Assembly (NCBI GenBank): GCA_009838525.1
Contig: VXRJ01000018.1
Coordinates: 728,346 to 792,345, forward strand
DNA from: Acidobacteriota bacterium
GTDB taxonomy: Bacteria > Acidobacteriota > Vicinamibacteria > Vicinamibacterales > UBA8438
DNA: 64,000 nt
Direction: 5' to 3'
Shown here: positions 9,227 to 17,001 of the stretch, one piece after another
Layout: every line of letters begins with the position of its first letter
How positions within the stretch are numbered: position 1 is the stretch's first letter
Translations under genes and position numbers: made by a program
Notes under the pieces: model-generated
Database searches by the model: none
What the model was told of the DNA's origin: nothing
Seen by the model: only the letters and a program-made list of their open reading frames with translations

Positions 9227-10613
9227 GTCGATCGCGCTCGTCGCGGCTCTTTTCGCGACCGGCTGCGCGGAACTGAGTTCGCCCGCACCCATTCCCACCC
9301 TCTCAATTGGCGTCGTCGATGCCAACGTCTGGACTGGCGACCCGGAACGGCCGCTGGTCGAGGCGATCGGTGTGGCCGGTGATCGTGTCGCGGCGCTGGG
9401 ATCGAGTGACGCGATTCGGGCGCTGGCGACCGACGCAATCATCATTGACGCGGACGGCGCTACCGTCGTGCCCGGCTTCATAGACGCCCATGTCCACCTG
9501 CTCGACGCCGGTCACCGACTGCTGGCGGATTCCACGGGCGACGCGCTGCTGCTGGACGATGACTTCTGGCCAGTAGCGCCGGAGCCACCGCCCGCTTACA
9601 CGCCGGCCGAGGACGACGCGGCGCTGGACGCCGCCCTCGCCTATCTGGCAGAACGCGGAGTTACGTCGGTCCATCACATGGGAAGCTGGAGCGACCTGGA
9701 GGCACTCGGACGGGCGCGCGACTCGGGACGCCTTACCGTGCGGGTCTACGCCGCGGTGCCCCTGCCCACGTGGCGGCGGCTGCGCGACGCGATCGCCGAT
9801 GGCCGTTTTGGCGGCGACGACGGACGGGGAGACAACTGGCTCCGAGTCGGTGCGCTGAAGGGCGTAGTGGACGGTACCGTCGAGACCGGTACCGCCGCGC
9901 TTGATCGCCCCTATCCCGACTCGGCCGACGATCGCGGCTTGATGCTGTACGACGTCGATCGACTTAGCGCGCAGGTCGATGCGGCTGACGCGGCAGAGCT
10001 CCAGGTGGCCCTTCACGCGGTCGGCAGCCGCGCCAATCACCTGGCGCTCAACGCCTACGAGCGGGTGATAGCGGCAAACGGTCCGCGCGACCGCAGGTTT
10101 CGGATCGAGCATGCACAACATCTCCGGCCGGACGACATTGCCCGGTTCGCCGCGCTGGACGTGATCGCCAGCATGCAGCCGGCCGGGATAGGTGACACCG
10201 GTCCGCGATTGGAAGCGATGGTGGGCAGCGCCGCGCTCGCGGAACCGTTTCCCGTCCGGTCCCTTCTGGACACCGGCGCGGTCGTGGCGTTCGGGACGAA
10301 CTGGGGATTTGCACCGGCGGGCCCCATCCTCGGCCTGTACGGGGCGGTCACCCGGCGTCCGCTCGAAGCGTTCTATCGGAGCAGCTGGACCCCATCCGAG
10401 AGGATCACGATCGCCCGGGCTCTCAACGCCTACACCATTGCTGGCGCGTACGCCTCTTTCGAGGATCGAATCAAGGGGCGGCTGGCGATCGGGCAACTGG
10501 CCGACTTCGCGGTCCTCGACCTGGCGCTGCTCTCCGTGCCCTTGCCGGACGTCCGCCTGGCGTCGGTCGTCGTTACCGTTACCGGCGGCCGAATCGTCTA
10601 CGACGCGCGCTGA
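9198..10613 (+). CDS. Amidohydrolase family 3 (YtcJ-like), lipoprotein
   Basis: A 471-residue metal-dependent hydrolase of the amidohydrolase superfamily. The N-terminus has a short hydrophobic stretch and an ATGCAELSS lipobox-like site, so it is probably a lipoprotein. A small beta-sandwich segment (VDANVWTGDPERPL) precedes GFIDAHVHL, the metal-binding HxH. Later RIEHAQHL and VAFGTNWG supply further His/Asp positions, with Asn in the last motif where Asp is usual. KGRLAIGQLADFAVLD is the typical C-terminal closure. YtcJ-like proteins act on N-acyl or amide substrates; the substrate here is unknown. It overlaps the preceding gene by 29 bases and the convergent asd by 16. Confidence 0.8.
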   Translation: MRAALPSPTESIALVAALFATGCAELSSPAPIPTLSIGVVDANVWTGDPERPLVEAIGVAGDRVAALGSSDAIRALATDAIIIDADGATVVPGFIDAHVHLLDAGHRLLADSTGDALLLDDDFWPVAPEPPPAYTPAEDDAALDAALAYLAERGVTSVHHMGSWSDLEALGRARDSGRLTVRVYAAVPLPTWRRLRDAIADGRFGGDDGRGDNWLRVGALKGVVDGTVETGTAALDRPYPDSADDRGLMLYDVDRLSAQVDAADAAELQVALHAVGSRANHLALNAYERVIAANGPRDRRFRIEHAQHLRPDDIARFAALDVIASMQPAGIGDTGPRLEAMVGSAALAEPFPVRSLLDTGAVVAFGTNWGFAPAGPILGLYGAVTRRPLEAFYRSSWTPSERITIARALNAYTIAGAYASFEDRIKGRLAIGQLADFAVLDLALLSVPLPDVRLASVVVTVTGGRIVYDAR

Positions 10614-11662
10614 TTTAGCAGGCCATCGACCCGCATCATCTCGGCGTTCAGGATCGCCGCGCCGGCCGCGCCGCGAATGGTGTTGTGCCCGAGCGCAACG
10701 AACTTCCAGTCGAGGACGGGGCATCGCCGGAGGCGGCCGACCGTAACCGCCATGCCCTGCTCGCAGTCGACATCCAGCCGCGGCTGCGGGCGGTCCGGGT
10801 CGCCTGTGTAGTGAATCGGGCGCGCGGGCGCGGTCGGCAGCCCTTCCTCCTGTGGCCGGCCGCCGAACGAGCGGAACGCGTCGATCAGGTCCTGTTCCGA
10901 CGGCGAGTCCTCGAATTCGACCGAAACCAGCATCGTATGCCCATTCAGGACAGGCACCCGCGTCGTCGTCGCGCTCACGACCATCGGGTGCGGGTGGATC
11001 GCGCCACCGTTCAGCGTGCCGAGAATCTTCTGGGTTTCCGTTTCCATCTTGTCCTCCTCGCCCCGGATGTGCGGGAGGATGTTGCCCGTGATGTCGAGTG
11101 ACGCCACCCCCGGATAGCCGGCGCCGGACACTGCCTGCAACGTGGAAACGGTCACCCGGGAGGGATTGAATGGCCGGAGCGGCGCCAGGGCAAGCGTCAG
11201 GACGATGGTCGAGCAGTTCGGATTGGTGACAATACGCCCCGGCCATCCCCGTGCACGCCCCTGCACGTCTAGCAGCGCGAGATGGTCCGCGTTGATCTCC
11301 GGAATGAGCAGCGGCACGTCCGTTTCCATGCGGTAGTTCCGTGCGTTGCTCACCACCGTGTGCCCCGCCTCCGCGAACGCCCGCTCCACCTCACCCGCCA
11401 CGGACGAGTCGAGGCCCGAAAAGACGAGGCTCGGCGACGCGCCCCCGGGCTCGCAACGCTGCACGGTCATCCCGGCAACGAACTCCGGGCGAGGCGTCGG
11501 GAGACGCCACGCCGTGGCGTCCGCGTAGGGCTTGCCGGCGGAGCGCTCGCTTGCGCCAATCCAGGCCACCTCGAACCAGGGATGGTCCGCCAACCCTGCT
11601 ATGAACTCCTGCCCCACCGTCCCGGTGGCGCCCAGCACGCCAACCGGCACCCGCTCACTCAT
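10598..11662 (-). CDS. asd: Aspartate-semialdehyde dehydrogenase
   Basis: Reduces aspartyl phosphate to aspartate semialdehyde, the branch point to lysine, methionine and threonine. The 354-residue enzyme has the NADP-binding GATGTVGQ at residues 11-18 and the active-site Cys150 in TNPNCSTI. GEEDKMETETQKILG and a HPHPMVVSATTTRVPV segment mark it as the archaeal/fungal-like subclass of ASADH. It is the last gene of the thr operon and is coupled to lysC by an ATGA overlap. Its 3' end overlaps the convergent amidohydrolase gene. Confidence 0.96.
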   Translation of the reverse strand: MSERVPVGVLGATGTVGQEFIAGLADHPWFEVAWIGASERSAGKPYADATAWRLPTPRPEFVAGMTVQRCEPGGASPSLVFSGLDSSVAGEVERAFAEAGHTVVSNARNYRMETDVPLLIPEINADHLALLDVQGRARGWPGRIVTNPNCSTIVLTLALAPLRPFNPSRVTVSTLQAVSGAGYPGVASLDITGNILPHIRGEEDKMETETQKILGTLNGGAIHPHPMVVSATTTRVPVLNGHTMLVSVEFEDSPSEQDLIDAFRSFGGRPQEEGLPTAPARPIHYTGDPDRPQPRLDVDCEQGMAVTVGRLRRCPVLDWKFVALGHNTIRGAAGAAILNAEMMRVDGLLNQRAS

Positions 11663-12942
11663 CTCACCTCCTGCCGTTCCGCCGACGCTGCCGCATCCGC
11701 CGTCTCGCCCAGCGGGAAGAACTCGTCATGCACCGCCTGTACCGCCCGCTCCGCGTCGACGGCATTGATCACGCAGGCGATCTTCATCTCCGACGAGCTG
11801 ATGCAGTCGATGTTGATCCCCTCGCGCGCCAGCACGGCGAACATCCGGGCCGCGAGGCTGGGTGTCGAGGCCAGACGCGACCCGACGATCGAGATCTTGG
11901 CGACATCGGGGTCCACCTCGTCCGACTGCGCCAGGCCGCGCGCCTTCCAGCCATCGATCAGAGGGCGGGTCGCATCGACGTATTCGGTATCGAGAACGAA
12001 CGTAATTCGCCCGATTCCCGCCGCGCTCGCACTCTGAATAATCAACCGGACGTTGATCGACCGCGCGGCCAGGTCCTGAAACACCTCTGCCGCAAGGCCG
12101 GGCCGATCCGGCACATCAATCAATGTCACCTTGGCGATCTTCGTCTCCTTGTTGACGCCGACGACCGCCGCCTGTTCCATCACCATCTCTTCTGCTCCAC
12201 GGATCCACGTGCCTTCTCCGTTATGGAAGCTGGACCGCACATGGATCGGAATCCTGTAGGCCATGCAAACTTCCGCCGCGCGGGGATGCAGCACCTTGGC
12301 GCCGCTCGACGCCATTTCGATCGCTTCCTCGTAGGTCATCTCGACCCAGCGCGTCGCGTGCGGGACGACGCGCGGGTCTGCGGACATGACGCCATCGACG
12401 TCGGTGCAGATTTCGCATACGGTGGCGCCCACGGCCGCCGCCACCGCGGCGCCGGTGATGTCGCTGCCACCACGTCCAAGGGTGGTCACCTCCTGATCAC
12501 GCGTGATCCCCTGAAAGCCCGTGATGATCACCACGCGCCCGTGTTCGAACTCCGCGTTGATGCGTGCCGTGTCGATCGACTCGATCCGTGCGATGTTGTA
12601 CGCATCGTCGGTGCGGATGCCGCACTGCGACGCGGTCAGCGAGACCGCCGGTATCCCGCGATTCTGCAACGCCAGGCCGAGGAGCGATACGGACACCTGC
12701 TCACCCGTCGCCAGCAGGAGATCCATCTCTCGCCCGCGCGGTTCCGACGACACCTGATGCGCCAGACCAACCAACTCGTCCGTGGTCTTCCCCATCGCCG
12801 AAAGCACCACCGCCAGCCGCTGCGTCTCCTCCCGGGCGCGCGCTACGCGGTCGGCAATCCTGCAGATATGCTCTGCCGTGGCGACCGAAGTCCCGCCATA
12901 TTTCTGGACGACGACGGGGGCCGCGGCGCTGGCGCCGGTCAT
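11659..12942 (-). CDS. lysC: Aspartate kinase
   Basis: Phosphorylates aspartate, the first step of the lysine/threonine/methionine family. The 427-residue monofunctional kinase begins with KYGGTSV near residue 13 and has the GRGGSDITGAAVAAAVGA nucleotide/substrate region. It ends with two ACT domains (about 265-420), the usual sites of feedback control by lysine and/or threonine. SSSEMKIACVI is typical of the second ACT domain. The ATG at 12942 overlaps the stop of the preceding TIGR00300 gene (ATGA) and the gene overlaps asd in the same way, so it is translationally coupled inside the thr operon. Confidence 0.96.
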   Translation of the reverse strand: MTGASAAAPVVVQKYGGTSVATAEHICRIADRVARAREETQRLAVVLSAMGKTTDELVGLAHQVSSEPRGREMDLLLATGEQVSVSLLGLALQNRGIPAVSLTASQCGIRTDDAYNIARIESIDTARINAEFEHGRVVIITGFQGITRDQEVTTLGRGGSDITGAAVAAAVGATVCEICTDVDGVMSADPRVVPHATRWVEMTYEEAIEMASSGAKVLHPRAAEVCMAYRIPIHVRSSFHNGEGTWIRGAEEMVMEQAAVVGVNKETKIAKVTLIDVPDRPGLAAEVFQDLAARSINVRLIIQSASAAGIGRITFVLDTEYVDATRPLIDGWKARGLAQSDEVDPDVAKISIVGSRLASTPSLAARMFAVLAREGINIDCISSSEMKIACVINAVDAERAVQAVHDEFFPLGETADAAASAERQEVR

Positions 12943-14210
12943 CGCGCACCTCCCACCGCGGCGCTGGCCAGCTTCGCCGCCGCCAGCTGCGACGTCAACT
13001 GGTGCAGGAAGAGCCCGACGTCGGTGACGATGCCGGCCGTCTGGGACGACCCTCGATCCGCGAGCTTGGTTACAACCGCGGGATTGATGTCGACACAGAC
13101 GACGCGGACACTCGACGGGAGCATGTTGCCGACACCAATACTGTGGAGCATCGTGGAGAGCATCACCACAAGGCTGACGTCGCGCAGTGAAGCCGCGTAG
13201 CGATCCTGCGCCTCGATCAGGTCCATCACCGTGTCGGGCAGCGGTCCGTCATCCCGGATGCTTCCCGCCAGGACATACTCGACATTGTTGCGGATTGCCT
13301 CGTACATGATGCCGGAGCGAAGCACACCCCGCTCCACCGCTGGCCGCAGGCCGCCCGCGCGGCTCACGACGTTGATCGCCCGCATGTGATTCCGGTGACC
13401 TTCCTTGACCGCGATTCCCGCATTCAGGTCGATGCCGAGCGACGTGCCGAATAGTGCATGCTCGACGTCATGTACGGCCAGCGCGTTCCCGGCCAGAATG
13501 ACGTCGACGTAACCCTGGCGGATCAACTCGGCAAAGTACTCGGCGCCACCACTGTGAACCACCACCGGACCGGCAACGAACGCGATTCGTCCCCCCGCCG
13601 CCTTCGTCGTGCGCAACATCGACACGACGCGCGCCACGCTCACCTCCACGCGCCGCTCGGTCGAGACATCGCCCGTCATGAATGCGAAGCCGAGCCGGTC
13701 GCGCTCCCGGAACTCGGGCGACACGCGCACGCCGGCGACGCCGCAGACCACCTGGTCGCCGGCCCGGACGTCGCGGAGCTTGCGACACTCGGCATGGCCG
13801 TCCGCGACGATGATCACCGCGTCCATGCGCTGCCGCGCCACTTCAAGCCAGTCGCCGCCGTGATGGACGAAAGTCCGGTGGTTCGTAGTCGAATAGAAAT
13901 CGTCCGGCACGCAGCCGTCCGCTTCCGCCGGCTCGAGCTTCGCATCCCGTTTCGCCGCTGCATGACAACCGAGCGGCATGAGATTCGAGAGCAGCTCCGT
14001 CAGCACCGCCGGGCTCGGCGCCGTCACCCTCAGCTGGAGATGCGAAATTTCCTCGTTCGTTCGTCCCAGATCAAACCGGAGCACCTCGAACGATGCTCCG
14101 TGCTCGATCACCCGGTCGAAGACCTCCTGGAGGAGGTTCGAATCGACCAGATGGCCTTCCGCCTCGACAACTTCGCTTCTCTCGGAGCGCAGCGCTTCGG
14201 TCTCGGTCAT
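12939..14210 (-). CDS. TIGR00300 / LOR-SDH family protein (ornithine cyclodeaminase-like?)
   Basis: A 423-residue protein of the family named for the conserved LOR/SDH bifunctional-enzyme region. Relatives include the archaeal ornithine cyclodeaminase and the C-terminal domain of cyanobacterial ArgZ/AgrE. Visible landmarks are GHLVDSNLLQEVFDRV at the N-terminus, MPLGCHAA, FYSTTNHRTFVHHGGDW, and a Rossmann-like half with AFVAGPVVVHSGGAEYFAEL, ILAGNALAVHDVEHALFGTSLG and VCVDINPAVVTKLADRG. No guanidine-hydrolase domain is attached. It sits between thrC and lysC with one-base (TGATG) and ATGA couplings. Ornithine chemistry would be unexpected there, so a different amino-acid substrate is possible. 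I start at ATG 14210; GTG at 14213 would add one residue. Confidence 0.75.
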   Translation of the reverse strand: MTETEALRSERSEVVEAEGHLVDSNLLQEVFDRVIEHGASFEVLRFDLGRTNEEISHLQLRVTAPSPAVLTELLSNLMPLGCHAAAKRDAKLEPAEADGCVPDDFYSTTNHRTFVHHGGDWLEVARQRMDAVIIVADGHAECRKLRDVRAGDQVVCGVAGVRVSPEFRERDRLGFAFMTGDVSTERRVEVSVARVVSMLRTTKAAGGRIAFVAGPVVVHSGGAEYFAELIRQGYVDVILAGNALAVHDVEHALFGTSLGIDLNAGIAVKEGHRNHMRAINVVSRAGGLRPAVERGVLRSGIMYEAIRNNVEYVLAGSIRDDGPLPDTVMDLIEAQDRYAASLRDVSLVVMLSTMLHSIGVGNMLPSSVRVVCVDINPAVVTKLADRGSSQTAGIVTDVGLFLHQLTSQLAAAKLASAAVGGAR

Positions 14211-15487
14211 CACGCCCCTGCTGCTCCCGACGCACCGACCTTCGCTCCCCGCGCCGCGTCGCGCTCGGCGACGAACTGCTCGAACTCCCCCAGCGAGCGG
14301 CCGAGGGCGGTCGGTGCGTCGACCAGCGAGGACATCACGTCGGCGGTCTTGTAGCCATTGCCAGTAATACAGATGACCGTGCTCTCGTCGCGCGGGATTA
14401 CCCCCTGCTCGAACAGCTTGCGCGCCACCGCAAGGGTCGTCCCGCCCGCCGGCTCCGTGAAGATGCCCTCGGTTCGCGCCAGCAGCCCGATCGCATCGAG
14501 AATCTCATCGTCGGTGGCGGAGGCGCCACCACCGCCCGATTCCCGCACGCTACGCAGTACGTGATAGCCGTCGGCCGGCGCGCCGATCGCGATTGACTTG
14601 GCAATCGTGTCCGGCCGAACCGGCTCGGGATAGTCGAGCCCCGTCTCGAGCGCGTGGATCACTGGAGCGCAGCCCGTCGCCTGCGCCGCATGGATGCGGG
14701 GTGGCGATCCATCCATCAGACCAGCGTCCAGAAGGTCGTTAAAGCCACGGCCGATCCGCGGCAACAACGTACCGCCCGCCACCGGACAGACGAGGTGCTG
14801 CGGGAAGCGCCAGCCGAGCTGCTCGACGATCTCGAAACCCATCGTCTTCGCGCCCTCGGCGTAGTAGGCGCGCAGGTTGATGTTTGCGAACGCCCAGCCG
14901 TACTTGTCTCCCACCTGCGTACAAAGGCGATTGACGTCATCGTAGGTCCCGTCGATCGCCACCACGTGCGGCCCGCTCACCGCGGAGCCCAGGATCTTCC
15001 CCGGCTCGAGCGTCCGCGGGATAAAGACGTAACACTCGAGGCCAAGCCGCGCCGCGTGCGCGGCGACGCTGTTCGCGAGGTTGCCGGTCGAGGCACAGCC
15101 GAACACGCCGGCGCCCAGCTCGCACGCCCGCGTGGCCGCCACCGGAACGACACGGTCCTTGTACGACAGGGTCGGGTGATTGACCGAATCGTCCTTCACA
15201 TAGAGCTCGCGCACGCCCAGCTCCGCCGCCAGGCGGTCGGCGCGCACGAGCGGTGTGAATCCGGACGCAAGGCCGGTCCGAGGCTCGCCGTCGATTGGAA
15301 GAAACTCACGATACCGCCAGAGGCTGGGAGGCCGTGCGGCGATCGTCTCGCGCGAGACGTCCCGCCGGATCGCGTCACGATCGTACGTCGTCTCAAGGGG
15401 ACCGAGGCACTCCGGGCAAACGTAGAACGCCTCGGCCGGAAAAGACGCCTGGCACATTGAGCATTGCAGGCCGGTCAGGTAGCTCAT
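14210..15487 (-). CDS. thrC: Threonine synthase
   Basis: A PLP enzyme converting O-phosphohomoserine to threonine. The 425-residue protein starts MSYLTGLQCSMC and carries an N-terminal zinc-ribbon-like pair (C9, C12, C24, C27), common in this class. PLP binds Lys in LSYKDRVV, and GCASTGNLANS is the phosphate-contact loop. I chose ATG 15487 because it overlaps the hom stop by ATGA and begins at the conserved zinc ribbon; a longer in-frame start at 15592 adds an unrelated Arg-rich tail. No homoserine kinase (thrB) is in the operon, so ThrB must be encoded elsewhere or replaced. Confidence 0.95.
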   Translation of the reverse strand: MSYLTGLQCSMCQASFPAEAFYVCPECLGPLETTYDRDAIRRDVSRETIAARPPSLWRYREFLPIDGEPRTGLASGFTPLVRADRLAAELGVRELYVKDDSVNHPTLSYKDRVVPVAATRACELGAGVFGCASTGNLANSVAAHAARLGLECYVFIPRTLEPGKILGSAVSGPHVVAIDGTYDDVNRLCTQVGDKYGWAFANINLRAYYAEGAKTMGFEIVEQLGWRFPQHLVCPVAGGTLLPRIGRGFNDLLDAGLMDGSPPRIHAAQATGCAPVIHALETGLDYPEPVRPDTIAKSIAIGAPADGYHVLRSVRESGGGGASATDDEILDAIGLLARTEGIFTEPAGGTTLAVARKLFEQGVIPRDESTVICITGNGYKTADVMSSLVDAPTALGRSLGEFEQFVAERDAARGAKVGASGAAGA

Positions 15488-16767
15488 CGACGGTCTCCGG
15501 GAAGCAGGATTGGCATCCAGACGGGTGGGCGGGCGTGAAAATCGAACGCGGCGATTTCCGCCAGCGCCGCCTGCACGACATCCGTGCGGCACGGTTCGAG
15601 TGTGACGACGAATGGAAGCTCCGACTTCGAATAGCCCGGCACCTGCAACACCGAGTCGAAGTTCAATTCATGGCGGAGACACACTTCTGCGATCGCCGCG
15701 ATGATTCCGGGACGGTCGACGACGACGAACCGAAGGTACTGCGGCGCAACGAAGTCCGCTTCTATCTCTGCGCGCGGTGGCACGGGCGTCCGCAGGGGCG
15801 GCGCTTCGCTGCCGATCCGCGCGATCGCCTCAAGGTCGGAGACCACCGCCACGGCAGTCGGATTTCCACCCGCGCCGAAGCCGCGAAACGCCGTCTCGCC
15901 GCCGTGCGAGCCCTCGACCACGACGACGTTCTGGCTTCCTTCGGCGCGCGCCATTGGCGATCGAATCGGGACCAGCATCGGCTGAACCGATGCCGTTATG
16001 CGATCGTCGCCGCCCCCGTTCACCAGTTCGGCGTGCGATACCTGGCGAATGGTGCTGTCAAGGCGTCGCGCGTAGACGAAGTCGATCGGCTCGACCGGAC
16101 GGATCGATCGGAGGGGAATCGTGCTGGCGTCGAGGCGGCGTCCGAGGCCGACCGCCGCAAGTATCGCCAGCTTCGCGCCGGCATCGCCTCCGTCGATGTC
16201 CGCCGTCGGATCCGCCTCGGCGAAACCCTTCTCCTGCGCCTCCGCGAGCACTGCGTCGAACGACAGCTCCGGCTCCCTTTCCATGCGCGTCAGAATGTAG
16301 TTGCAGGTGCCGTTCAGCACCCCCGCGACACGGCAAAGACGGTCACCTGCCAACCCTTCCCGCACCGCGCGGATGATCGGCACGCCGCCAGCTACCGCCG
16401 CCTCGAACAGCAGATGCCGCCGGTGTTCCGCCGCCACATCAAGCAACTGGGCGCCGCTCTCGGCGATCACCTGCTTGTTTGCAGTGACGACGGACTTCCC
16501 CGCCTCAAGGGCCTGCCGGATCCAGTCGGCAGCCGGATGGGTACCGCCAATCAGCTCGACCACGATGTCGGCGTCGGAATCGAGAACGTCGGCAAAATCG
16601 GAAGTCCACACCAGATCGTCCGGTGTCCAAACCGCCGACGTCCGCTTCCGATTGACGTCGCGGTTGCAGACATGGGTAAGCCTGAGCGGCCGACCGTCCC
16701 CCGTGCCGAGGATCCTGGCGACCGACTGCCCGACCGTACCGAAACCGACGATCGCAACCTTCAGCAC
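15484..16767 (-). CDS. hom: Homoserine dehydrogenase
   Basis: Reduces aspartate semialdehyde to homoserine, the committed step to threonine and methionine. The 427-residue protein has the NAD(P)-binding motif VAIVGFGTVGQSV at its N-terminus, the VVTANKQVIAE catalytic-core signature, GVLNGTCNYIL, and a C-terminal ACT domain (about 345-420) for threonine feedback. I start it at GTG 16767, which gives VLKVAIVGFGTVG as in the family. An in-frame ATG at 16794 lies inside the stem of the attenuator hairpin and would add MAIFFGNDA, so I reject it. It is the first structural gene of the thr operon and is coupled to thrC by ATGA. Confidence 0.95.
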   Translation of the reverse strand: MLKVAIVGFGTVGQSVARILGTGDGRPLRLTHVCNRDVNRKRTSAVWTPDDLVWTSDFADVLDSDADIVVELIGGTHPAADWIRQALEAGKSVVTANKQVIAESGAQLLDVAAEHRRHLLFEAAVAGGVPIIRAVREGLAGDRLCRVAGVLNGTCNYILTRMEREPELSFDAVLAEAQEKGFAEADPTADIDGGDAGAKLAILAAVGLGRRLDASTIPLRSIRPVEPIDFVYARRLDSTIRQVSHAELVNGGGDDRITASVQPMLVPIRSPMARAEGSQNVVVVEGSHGGETAFRGFGAGGNPTAVAVVSDLEAIARIGSEAPPLRTPVPPRAEIEADFVAPQYLRFVVVDRPGIIAAIAEVCLRHELNFDSVLQVPGYSKSELPFVVTLEPCRTDVVQAALAEIAAFDFHARPPVWMPILLPGDRR

Positions 16768-16779
16768 AGCGTCATTACC

Positions 16780-16820
16780 AAAAAAAATAGCCATCAGCCG
16801 ACTGGCGGATGATGGCCATT
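16780..16820 (-). terminator. intrinsic terminator (attenuator) before hom
   Basis: On the minus strand AATGGCCATCA (16820-16810) pairs with TGATGGCTATT (16796-16786), 11 bp with one G.U. An inner GCC/GGC stem (16806-16804 with 16799-16797) closes the AGTC loop. The right arm runs into eight consecutive Us (16787-16780). It lies after a Thr-rich leader and 13 bases before the hom start, the position expected of an attenuator. Confidence 0.82.
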
Positions 16821-16853
16821 GGAGCGTCGAGTTGTGCCGCTGGCGTCATCCGC
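16805..16853 (-). promoter_or_regulatory. candidate antiterminator pairing
   Basis: GCGGATGA (16853-16846), which contains the leader stop codon TGA, is perfectly complementary to TCATCCGC (16812-16805), part of the left arm and loop side of the terminator. Pairing would block the terminator. A ribosome reaching the stop codon would cover GCGGATGA and let the terminator form; a ribosome stalled at upstream Thr codons would leave it free. This is a hand-made structure proposal. Confidence 0.5.
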
Positions 16854-16917
16854 TACCCGTGCGCCCCGTCATCGGGGTGCCCGGAGTAGCCGTGGTCTTC
16901 ATGTGGCCAGCCGTCAT
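16846..16917 (-). CDS. thr operon leader peptide (attenuation control)
   Basis: A 23-codon ORF starting at ATG 16917 and ending TGA at 16848-16846. Seven of 23 residues are Thr (positions 2, 8, 9, 11, 14, 17 and 20), encoded by ACG, ACC and ACT, with no Ile codon. It begins MTAGHMKTTATPG. AAGG lies just upstream of the ATG, a weak and close ribosome site. It sits between a good promoter and the intrinsic terminator upstream of hom. A CCCCG-ATGA-CGGGG hairpin (16877-16864) inside it could act as a pause structure. Function would lie in translation-coupled sensing of charged threonyl-tRNA. The peptide itself probably has no other role. Confidence 0.72.
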   Translation of the reverse strand: MTAGHMKTTATPGTPMTGRTGSG

Positions 16918-16971
16918 GACCTTATGGCGATGCACCTTCTGCGGCTCCAACCCTCGGCAAGTCAACCGTGC

Positions 16972-17001
16972 TTTATACTCCGGCCGCCGGCCGCGCGTCA
17001 A
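16972..17001 (-). promoter_or_regulatory. promoter of the thr operon
   Basis: Minus-strand TTGACG (16996-17001), an 18-nt spacer and TATAAA (16972-16977) make one of the best sigma-70-like promoters in the window. Transcription would start near 16965, about 48 bases before the leader ATG. It lies in the divergent gap shared with the SSS symporter gene at 17046. Confidence 0.68.

Follow-up and report, generated by a model that had tools for sequence, protein, structure and literature searches.

In Escherichia coli, the thr attenuator (thrL) combines Thr codons in a short leader ORF with a mutually exclusive antiterminator and U-tailed terminator, and it serves an aspartate-family operon. Leader-peptide attenuators have also been described in Actinobacteria at trp, ilv and leuS (PMC1262725), in Corynebacterium at ilvBNC (PMC11857589) and in Firmicutes at his (PMC2965389, PMC9413887); threonine elements were not found in the survey of Actinobacteria (PMC1262725). 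According to Naville and Gautheret (2010), Proteobacteria and Actinobacteria were, as far as they knew, the only groups with demonstrated leader-peptide systems before their his cases in Firmicutes; they also predicted and counted attenuators in Acidobacteria, almost none of which had an associated function (PMC2965389).

Here we analysed a 64,000-nucleotide stretch of DNA (hereafter, the window) from a genome of 4.29 Mb in 38 contigs. An earlier note on this DNA had described a promoter, a 23-codon leader ORF with seven Thr codons, two complementary strands and a hairpin with eight Us ahead of hom, in an operon hom-thrC-(TIGR00300)-lysC-asd of a host that seemed to lie outside Proteobacteria. 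The coordinates and counts were right, the NCBIfam assignments agree with the operon content, and the host belongs to the phylum Acidobacteriota. The features, with the basis for each, are as follows.

16,996-17,001, minus strand: -35 hexamer TTGACG (sequence; kept in relatives)
16,972-16,977, minus strand: -10 hexamer TATAAA, separated from the -35 hexamer by an 18-nt spacer (sequence; kept in relatives)
16,846-16,917, minus strand: leader ORF MTAGHMKTTATPGTPMTGRTGSG with its stop, 23 codons, 7 of them Thr (sequence; in relatives, Thr-rich counterparts that also end in this RNA motif)
16,846-16,853, minus strand: putative antiterminator 5' strand GCGGATGA, holding the leader stop TGA (exact complement of 16,805-16,812; covariation)
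16,805-16,812, minus strand: putative antiterminator 3' strand TCATCCGC, within the terminator 5' arm (sequence complementarity; covariation)
16,786-16,820, minus strand: terminator hairpin, 11-bp stem plus 3 inner pairs, one G-U (RNA folding; covariation)
16,780-16,787, minus strand: T8 run of the intrinsic terminator (sequence)
15,484-16,767, minus strand: hom, homoserine dehydrogenase (PRK06349), the first structural gene (NCBIfam)
14,210-15,487, minus strand: thrC, threonine synthase (TIGR00260) (NCBIfam)
12,939-14,213, minus strand: gene of the TIGR00300 family (nickel-pincer-dependent ornithine cyclodeaminase) (NCBIfam)
11,659-12,942, minus strand: lysC, aspartate kinase (NCBIfam)
10,598-11,662, minus strand: asd, aspartate-semialdehyde dehydrogenase (asd_EA type) (NCBIfam)

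The Thr codons occupy positions 2, 8, 9, 11, 14, 17 and 20 of the leader, which contains no Ile codon and is preceded by a weak Shine-Dalgarno sequence. The hom start is GTG at 16,767, about 12 bases past the T-run; an in-frame ATG at 16,794, inside the terminator, is unlikely to be used. RNA folding recovered the terminator hairpin, with z = -2.8 for the whole leader, and the best fold also includes a 1:2 hairpin. A simple consensus scan of the window listed neither the promoter nor the terminator because its hexamer, loop and tail rules are fixed, and this result is not evidence of their absence.

This element is very probably a transcription attenuator of the classic ribosome-mediated type, with charged tRNA-Thr as its signal. 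We propose that a sigma-70-like promoter would start the transcript and that a ribosome would translate the leader. With ample Thr-tRNA, the ribosome would reach the stop codon inside GCGGATGA and cover that strand, so that TCATCCGC would fold into the terminator and transcription would stop ahead of hom, at the T8 run. Under a shortage of Thr-tRNA, the ribosome would stall at an upstream Thr codon, and the free GCGGATGA would pair with TCATCCGC; this pairing would block the terminator and allow hom-thrC-TIGR00300-lysC-asd to be transcribed. Leader translation, ribosome stalling and threonine-dependent read-through are what we infer from this arrangement.

The locus resembles the E. coli thr attenuator in its Thr-codon leader ORF, its mutually exclusive antiterminator and terminator, and its aspartate-family operon. 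It differs in that its leader lacks Ile codons, its stop codon lies inside the antiterminator strand, and its operon is hom-thrC-TIGR00300-lysC-asd, in Acidobacteriota, rather than thrABC. As had been anticipated, the Rfam Thr_leader model (RF00506) had its best match in the genome at an unrelated place, with 16.5 bits against a cut-off of 55, and did not list the site at E values up to 10; no other relevant Rfam family appeared at the window site either, whether at the gathering threshold or at E values up to 10. The element is thus predicted to function like the E. coli thr attenuator, yet it stands outside the Thr_leader family. It shares a codon-rich leader, an antiterminator and a terminator with the attenuators of Actinobacteria, Corynebacterium and Firmicutes; those cases were reported for individual operons, whereas a single core here precedes many operons with swapped codons. 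For the predicted 5' terminators of Acidobacteria (PMC2965389), a function and a mechanism can now be proposed. Searches of the open-access literature turned up no such attenuator in Acidobacteriota; a subscription comparative paper outside that scope (Lopatovskaya et al. 2010) may hold an earlier prediction. Judged by Rfam and the open literature, the attenuator family is uncatalogued. Its principle is ordinary, and what is new in place and form is a common switch core in which the sensor codons are exchangeable.

Conservation and covariation upstream of hom

The antiterminator and terminator are kept in 24 of the 25 same-family genomes for which hom and its upstream region were recovered. 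The pattern consists of a hairpin, GCCATCATCCG...GGRTGATGGC, with a T-run before hom, and of GGRTGATGTAGC or a close form shortly upstream of the hairpin; the exception, G009, lacks the hairpin. TTGAC(N), followed by an 18-nt spacer (17 nt in rare cases), lies at -127 to -149 from the antiterminator in nearly all genomes of the family, and the TATAA -10 element is likewise conserved. The gene order hom-thrC-TIGR00300-lysC(-asd) is found in family f14 as well as in nearly all genomes of the host's own family. The TIGR00300 gene sits firmly between thrC and lysC in this threonine/lysine operon, and in other families it directly follows hom. No Thr leader with a terminator like that of the window was present at the other named hom loci examined.

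Conservation of the Thr codons and hairpins in close relatives had been named beforehand as a point on which the reading could fail, and both are conserved, the Thr-rich leaders being retained in all same-family genera except one. In that genus (G008, G016 and G026; loci L037, L036 and L035), the promoter, antiterminator and terminator are kept and the Thr codons and TGA stop are gone, which may mean either that the sensor has been lost naturally or that the signal has changed. The antiterminator 5' strand has the family consensus GGRTGATG(UA)GC. The leader stop is either the TGA in GGRTGA or, in other families, a TAG five bases on, and the leader's frame with respect to the RNA core therefore differs between families. 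Despite this change of frame the Thr codons persist, as in MVTTKTTPTTPTMAPAVRGLRG, MTENMTTPVVTTTMAPAPRGHSG and MTQTRGTTATMMTPTVVMSITTTATPMRARHCRMM, so that both the RNA core and the sensor codons are retained across families with different stop frames. The description of the leader as Thr-only holds for the window but not for the family, since in relatives the hom leaders contain Met codons, and some Ile codons, in addition to Thr.

The check for covariation that the earlier note had suggested revealed compensatory changes in both helices. We built a covariance model, R1, from 26 cores upstream of hom. Across 96 sites, 98.1% of the cells in the terminator were paired, with 16 compensatory cells against a shuffled mean of 1.7; in the antiterminator, GGRTGATG(UA)GC pairing with GCCATCATCC, 90.8% were paired, with 27 compensatory cells against a shuffled mean of 11.1. 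The two results are not independent because one strand belongs to both helices in the shared alignment, which was fitted to the terminator. When the partners were slid by 1-3 columns, the pairing of both helices collapsed. These data argue for a mutually exclusive antiterminator and terminator that share one strand. A conserved leader (1:2) protector hairpin was not found across the relatives, in which pairing between the leader and the antiterminator strand (0.61) was close to that of shuffled leaders (0.60); we did not let this hairpin decide the classification. The locus had been said to display the complete architecture of attenuation; this stands for the promoter, leader, antiterminator and terminator, and is slightly too strong because no conserved 1:2 hairpin was found.

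Sensor codons and the operons they precede

R1 matched in 75 of 120 genomes of the host's order, with scores up to 79 bits and with more than one core site in many of the 75. When 396 genomes were drawn from across the phylum, 51 had a match, families beyond the order included. Among 32 genomes located by way of more distant hom relatives, the R1 score never exceeded 32 bits; we therefore take this ceiling as the noise level and regard R1 matches below about 37 bits as not trustworthy. The core was found before ilvD-ilvB-ilvN-ilvC, where the leader in the host genome itself is MITWWERLVVVIVRVAGAIAPAATG; before pheA followed by ilvD; before a fused thrA, with a Thr-run leader containing METMTTTTTTIGVDGRCG; before ileS, with the Ile-rich leader MTPDHRPSGIITPIGIPIGIIGAGIRVGRGRVM; before the citramalate synthase gene (cimA); and before hom-metY-metX, with Met-rich leaders. 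The finding is thus larger than the one first noted, because the core also stands before ilv, met, thrA, ileS, cimA and further operons. Judged from sequence comparison, these sites belong to a predicted attenuator family in which one antiterminator/terminator core is combined with exchangeable sensor codons, in the host's order, which is probably Vicinamibacterales, and in some families elsewhere in the phylum.

The sensor codons match the operon: Thr at hom and thrA, Val and Ile at ilv, Met at hom-metY-metX and Ile at ileS. At hom/thrA sites, Thr accounts for 19.8% of the final 22 codons of the leader, compared with 6.6% at other sites and 2.7% when the same hom/thrA DNA is read in its other two frames, and Ile and Val together account for 30.5% at ilv-type sites, compared with 11.2% elsewhere. 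None of 20,000 label permutations, in which related genomes were counted as independent, gave differences as high for either set, and the specificity also held in per-genus means, except in the genus that has lost its Thr codons. The regulatory codons are also positioned with respect to the stop: they make up 2% of the last three codons and about 10% of codons 4-6 before the stop, and they peak 7-18 codons before it, at 40-57% in the best bins. A ribosome stalled in the last leader codons would cover the antiterminator strand, and the scarcity near the stop is what would be expected if a stalled ribosome had to leave this stop-containing strand free. The codon-rich leader, the predicted mutually exclusive helices, the placement of promoter and terminator, and the position of the codons are those of a classic attenuator. 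One core with exchangeable sensor codons also amounts to an experiment done by nature, in which the classic stalling model is tested and no mutants are needed.

Since threonine, methionine and isoleucine are all fed by hom, the leader could be a multi-signal attenuator of the aspartate family, sensing Thr and Met, and also Ile in relatives; this would refine the tRNA-Thr reading and would not exclude it. Met codons are enriched in the hom leaders of relatives (9.6% versus 3.6%, with none of 20,000 permutations as high), although the Met count includes some start codons; some of these leaders contain Ile, for example MLAITMVPTVIRVPRATMMPAARGPRG, and the window leader has two internal Met codons. 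In the window, however, Thr outnumbers internal Met by 7 to 2 and Ile is absent, and we entertain multi-signal sensing only as a tentative possibility.

It is very unlikely that another RNA sensor (a riboswitch or T-box) or a protein governs the terminator, with the Thr-rich ORF being incidental. Such control by riboswitches and T-boxes is common for 5' terminators of biosynthetic operons, and one genus keeps the hairpins without the Thr codons. However, apart from tRNAs, no Rfam family, T-box and amino-acid riboswitch models included, reached the gathering threshold in the window or at 20 related loci, and the sensor codons change with the operon.

We also considered translational coupling, in which the leader would mainly boost hom translation by reinitiation and the hairpin would be a leaky terminator. 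Leader-gene reinitiation is a proposed mechanism in bacteria, Acidobacteria among them (PMC4833913), and the hom start lies about 12 bases after the T-run in the window. The distance from the leader stop to hom is nevertheless long, at about 80 bases in the window and up to about 300 in relatives, and coupling leaves the codon specificity and the conserved antiterminator unexplained, which makes it highly improbable.

Thr-richness alone is weak evidence, as three other, unrelated ORFs reach at least 28% Thr among the 368 start-stop pairs of 15-45 codons in the window, although none of the three is followed by a T-run; a random 8-mer met its exact reverse complement at the same distance in 11 of 4,000 trials. 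The combination of elements and its conservation in relatives nevertheless is far beyond chance, and an ordinary terminator beside a random Thr-rich ORF is scarcely conceivable, being already refuted by the conservation, the covariation and the swapping of sensor codons.

Further sites and reach of the core

Beyond the predicted tRNA-Thr attenuator of the window, individual sites suggest additional specificities. At L083, L084 and L085 (genomes G057, G047 and G074), hom is preceded by Met-rich leaders, such as MGMAMRMRSMAAMSMRRRAGG, and at L084 it is followed by metY-metX; we regard these leaders as candidate methionine attenuators. The core predicts operon specificity, distinguishing, for example, a hom for methionine from a hom for threonine, and the covariance model can be used to annotate amino-acid regulons in these genomes. 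At L252 (532-613, genome G049), the core lies before a cysG-like (siroheme synthase) gene and a nitrite/sulfite-reductase-like gene, and the leader contains ICPICSCCCTT; this single case is a candidate cysteine attenuator.

Similarity between cores within one genome gave no sign of recent duplication: in one family, hom and ilv cores were as alike in the same genome (0.608) as in different genomes (0.605), and such duplication is not supported. The likeness of their linkers was also the same within a genome as between genomes of the family (0.333 in both). The shared cores may reflect either common ancestry or convergence, and no within-genome homogenisation of cores was seen.

On balance, we favour a broader reading in which one core with a built-in leader stop is a general module of Acidobacteriota, with repeated exchanges of its sensor codons. 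It would control threonine, branched-chain, methionine, cysteine-related and aminoacyl-tRNA synthetase genes and even genes for unknown small peptides, and leader-peptide attenuation would be a main mode of amino-acid control. A mechanism is proposed for the predicted attenuators of a large, mostly uncultured phylum; if the broader reading is true, attenuators that were previously almost without assigned function gain a main role in amino-acid control.

At L216 (+81 to +348 past the core), and likewise at L219, L222, L217, L247 and L236, a Leu-rich leader is followed by a small ORF, and an ORF of the same kind lies between the terminator and hom at L057. These ORFs encode 46-99 amino acids with a C-terminal GYG[HYF]G[VI], and five examples gave no Pfam match. 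In family f2, such an ORF adjoins ilvB-ilvC in convergent orientation. It is possibly an uncharacterised peptide gene under leucine control. At L215, L233, L242 and L248, the core precedes genes for LysR-type regulators, and the leaders contain Val, Leu and Ile codons.
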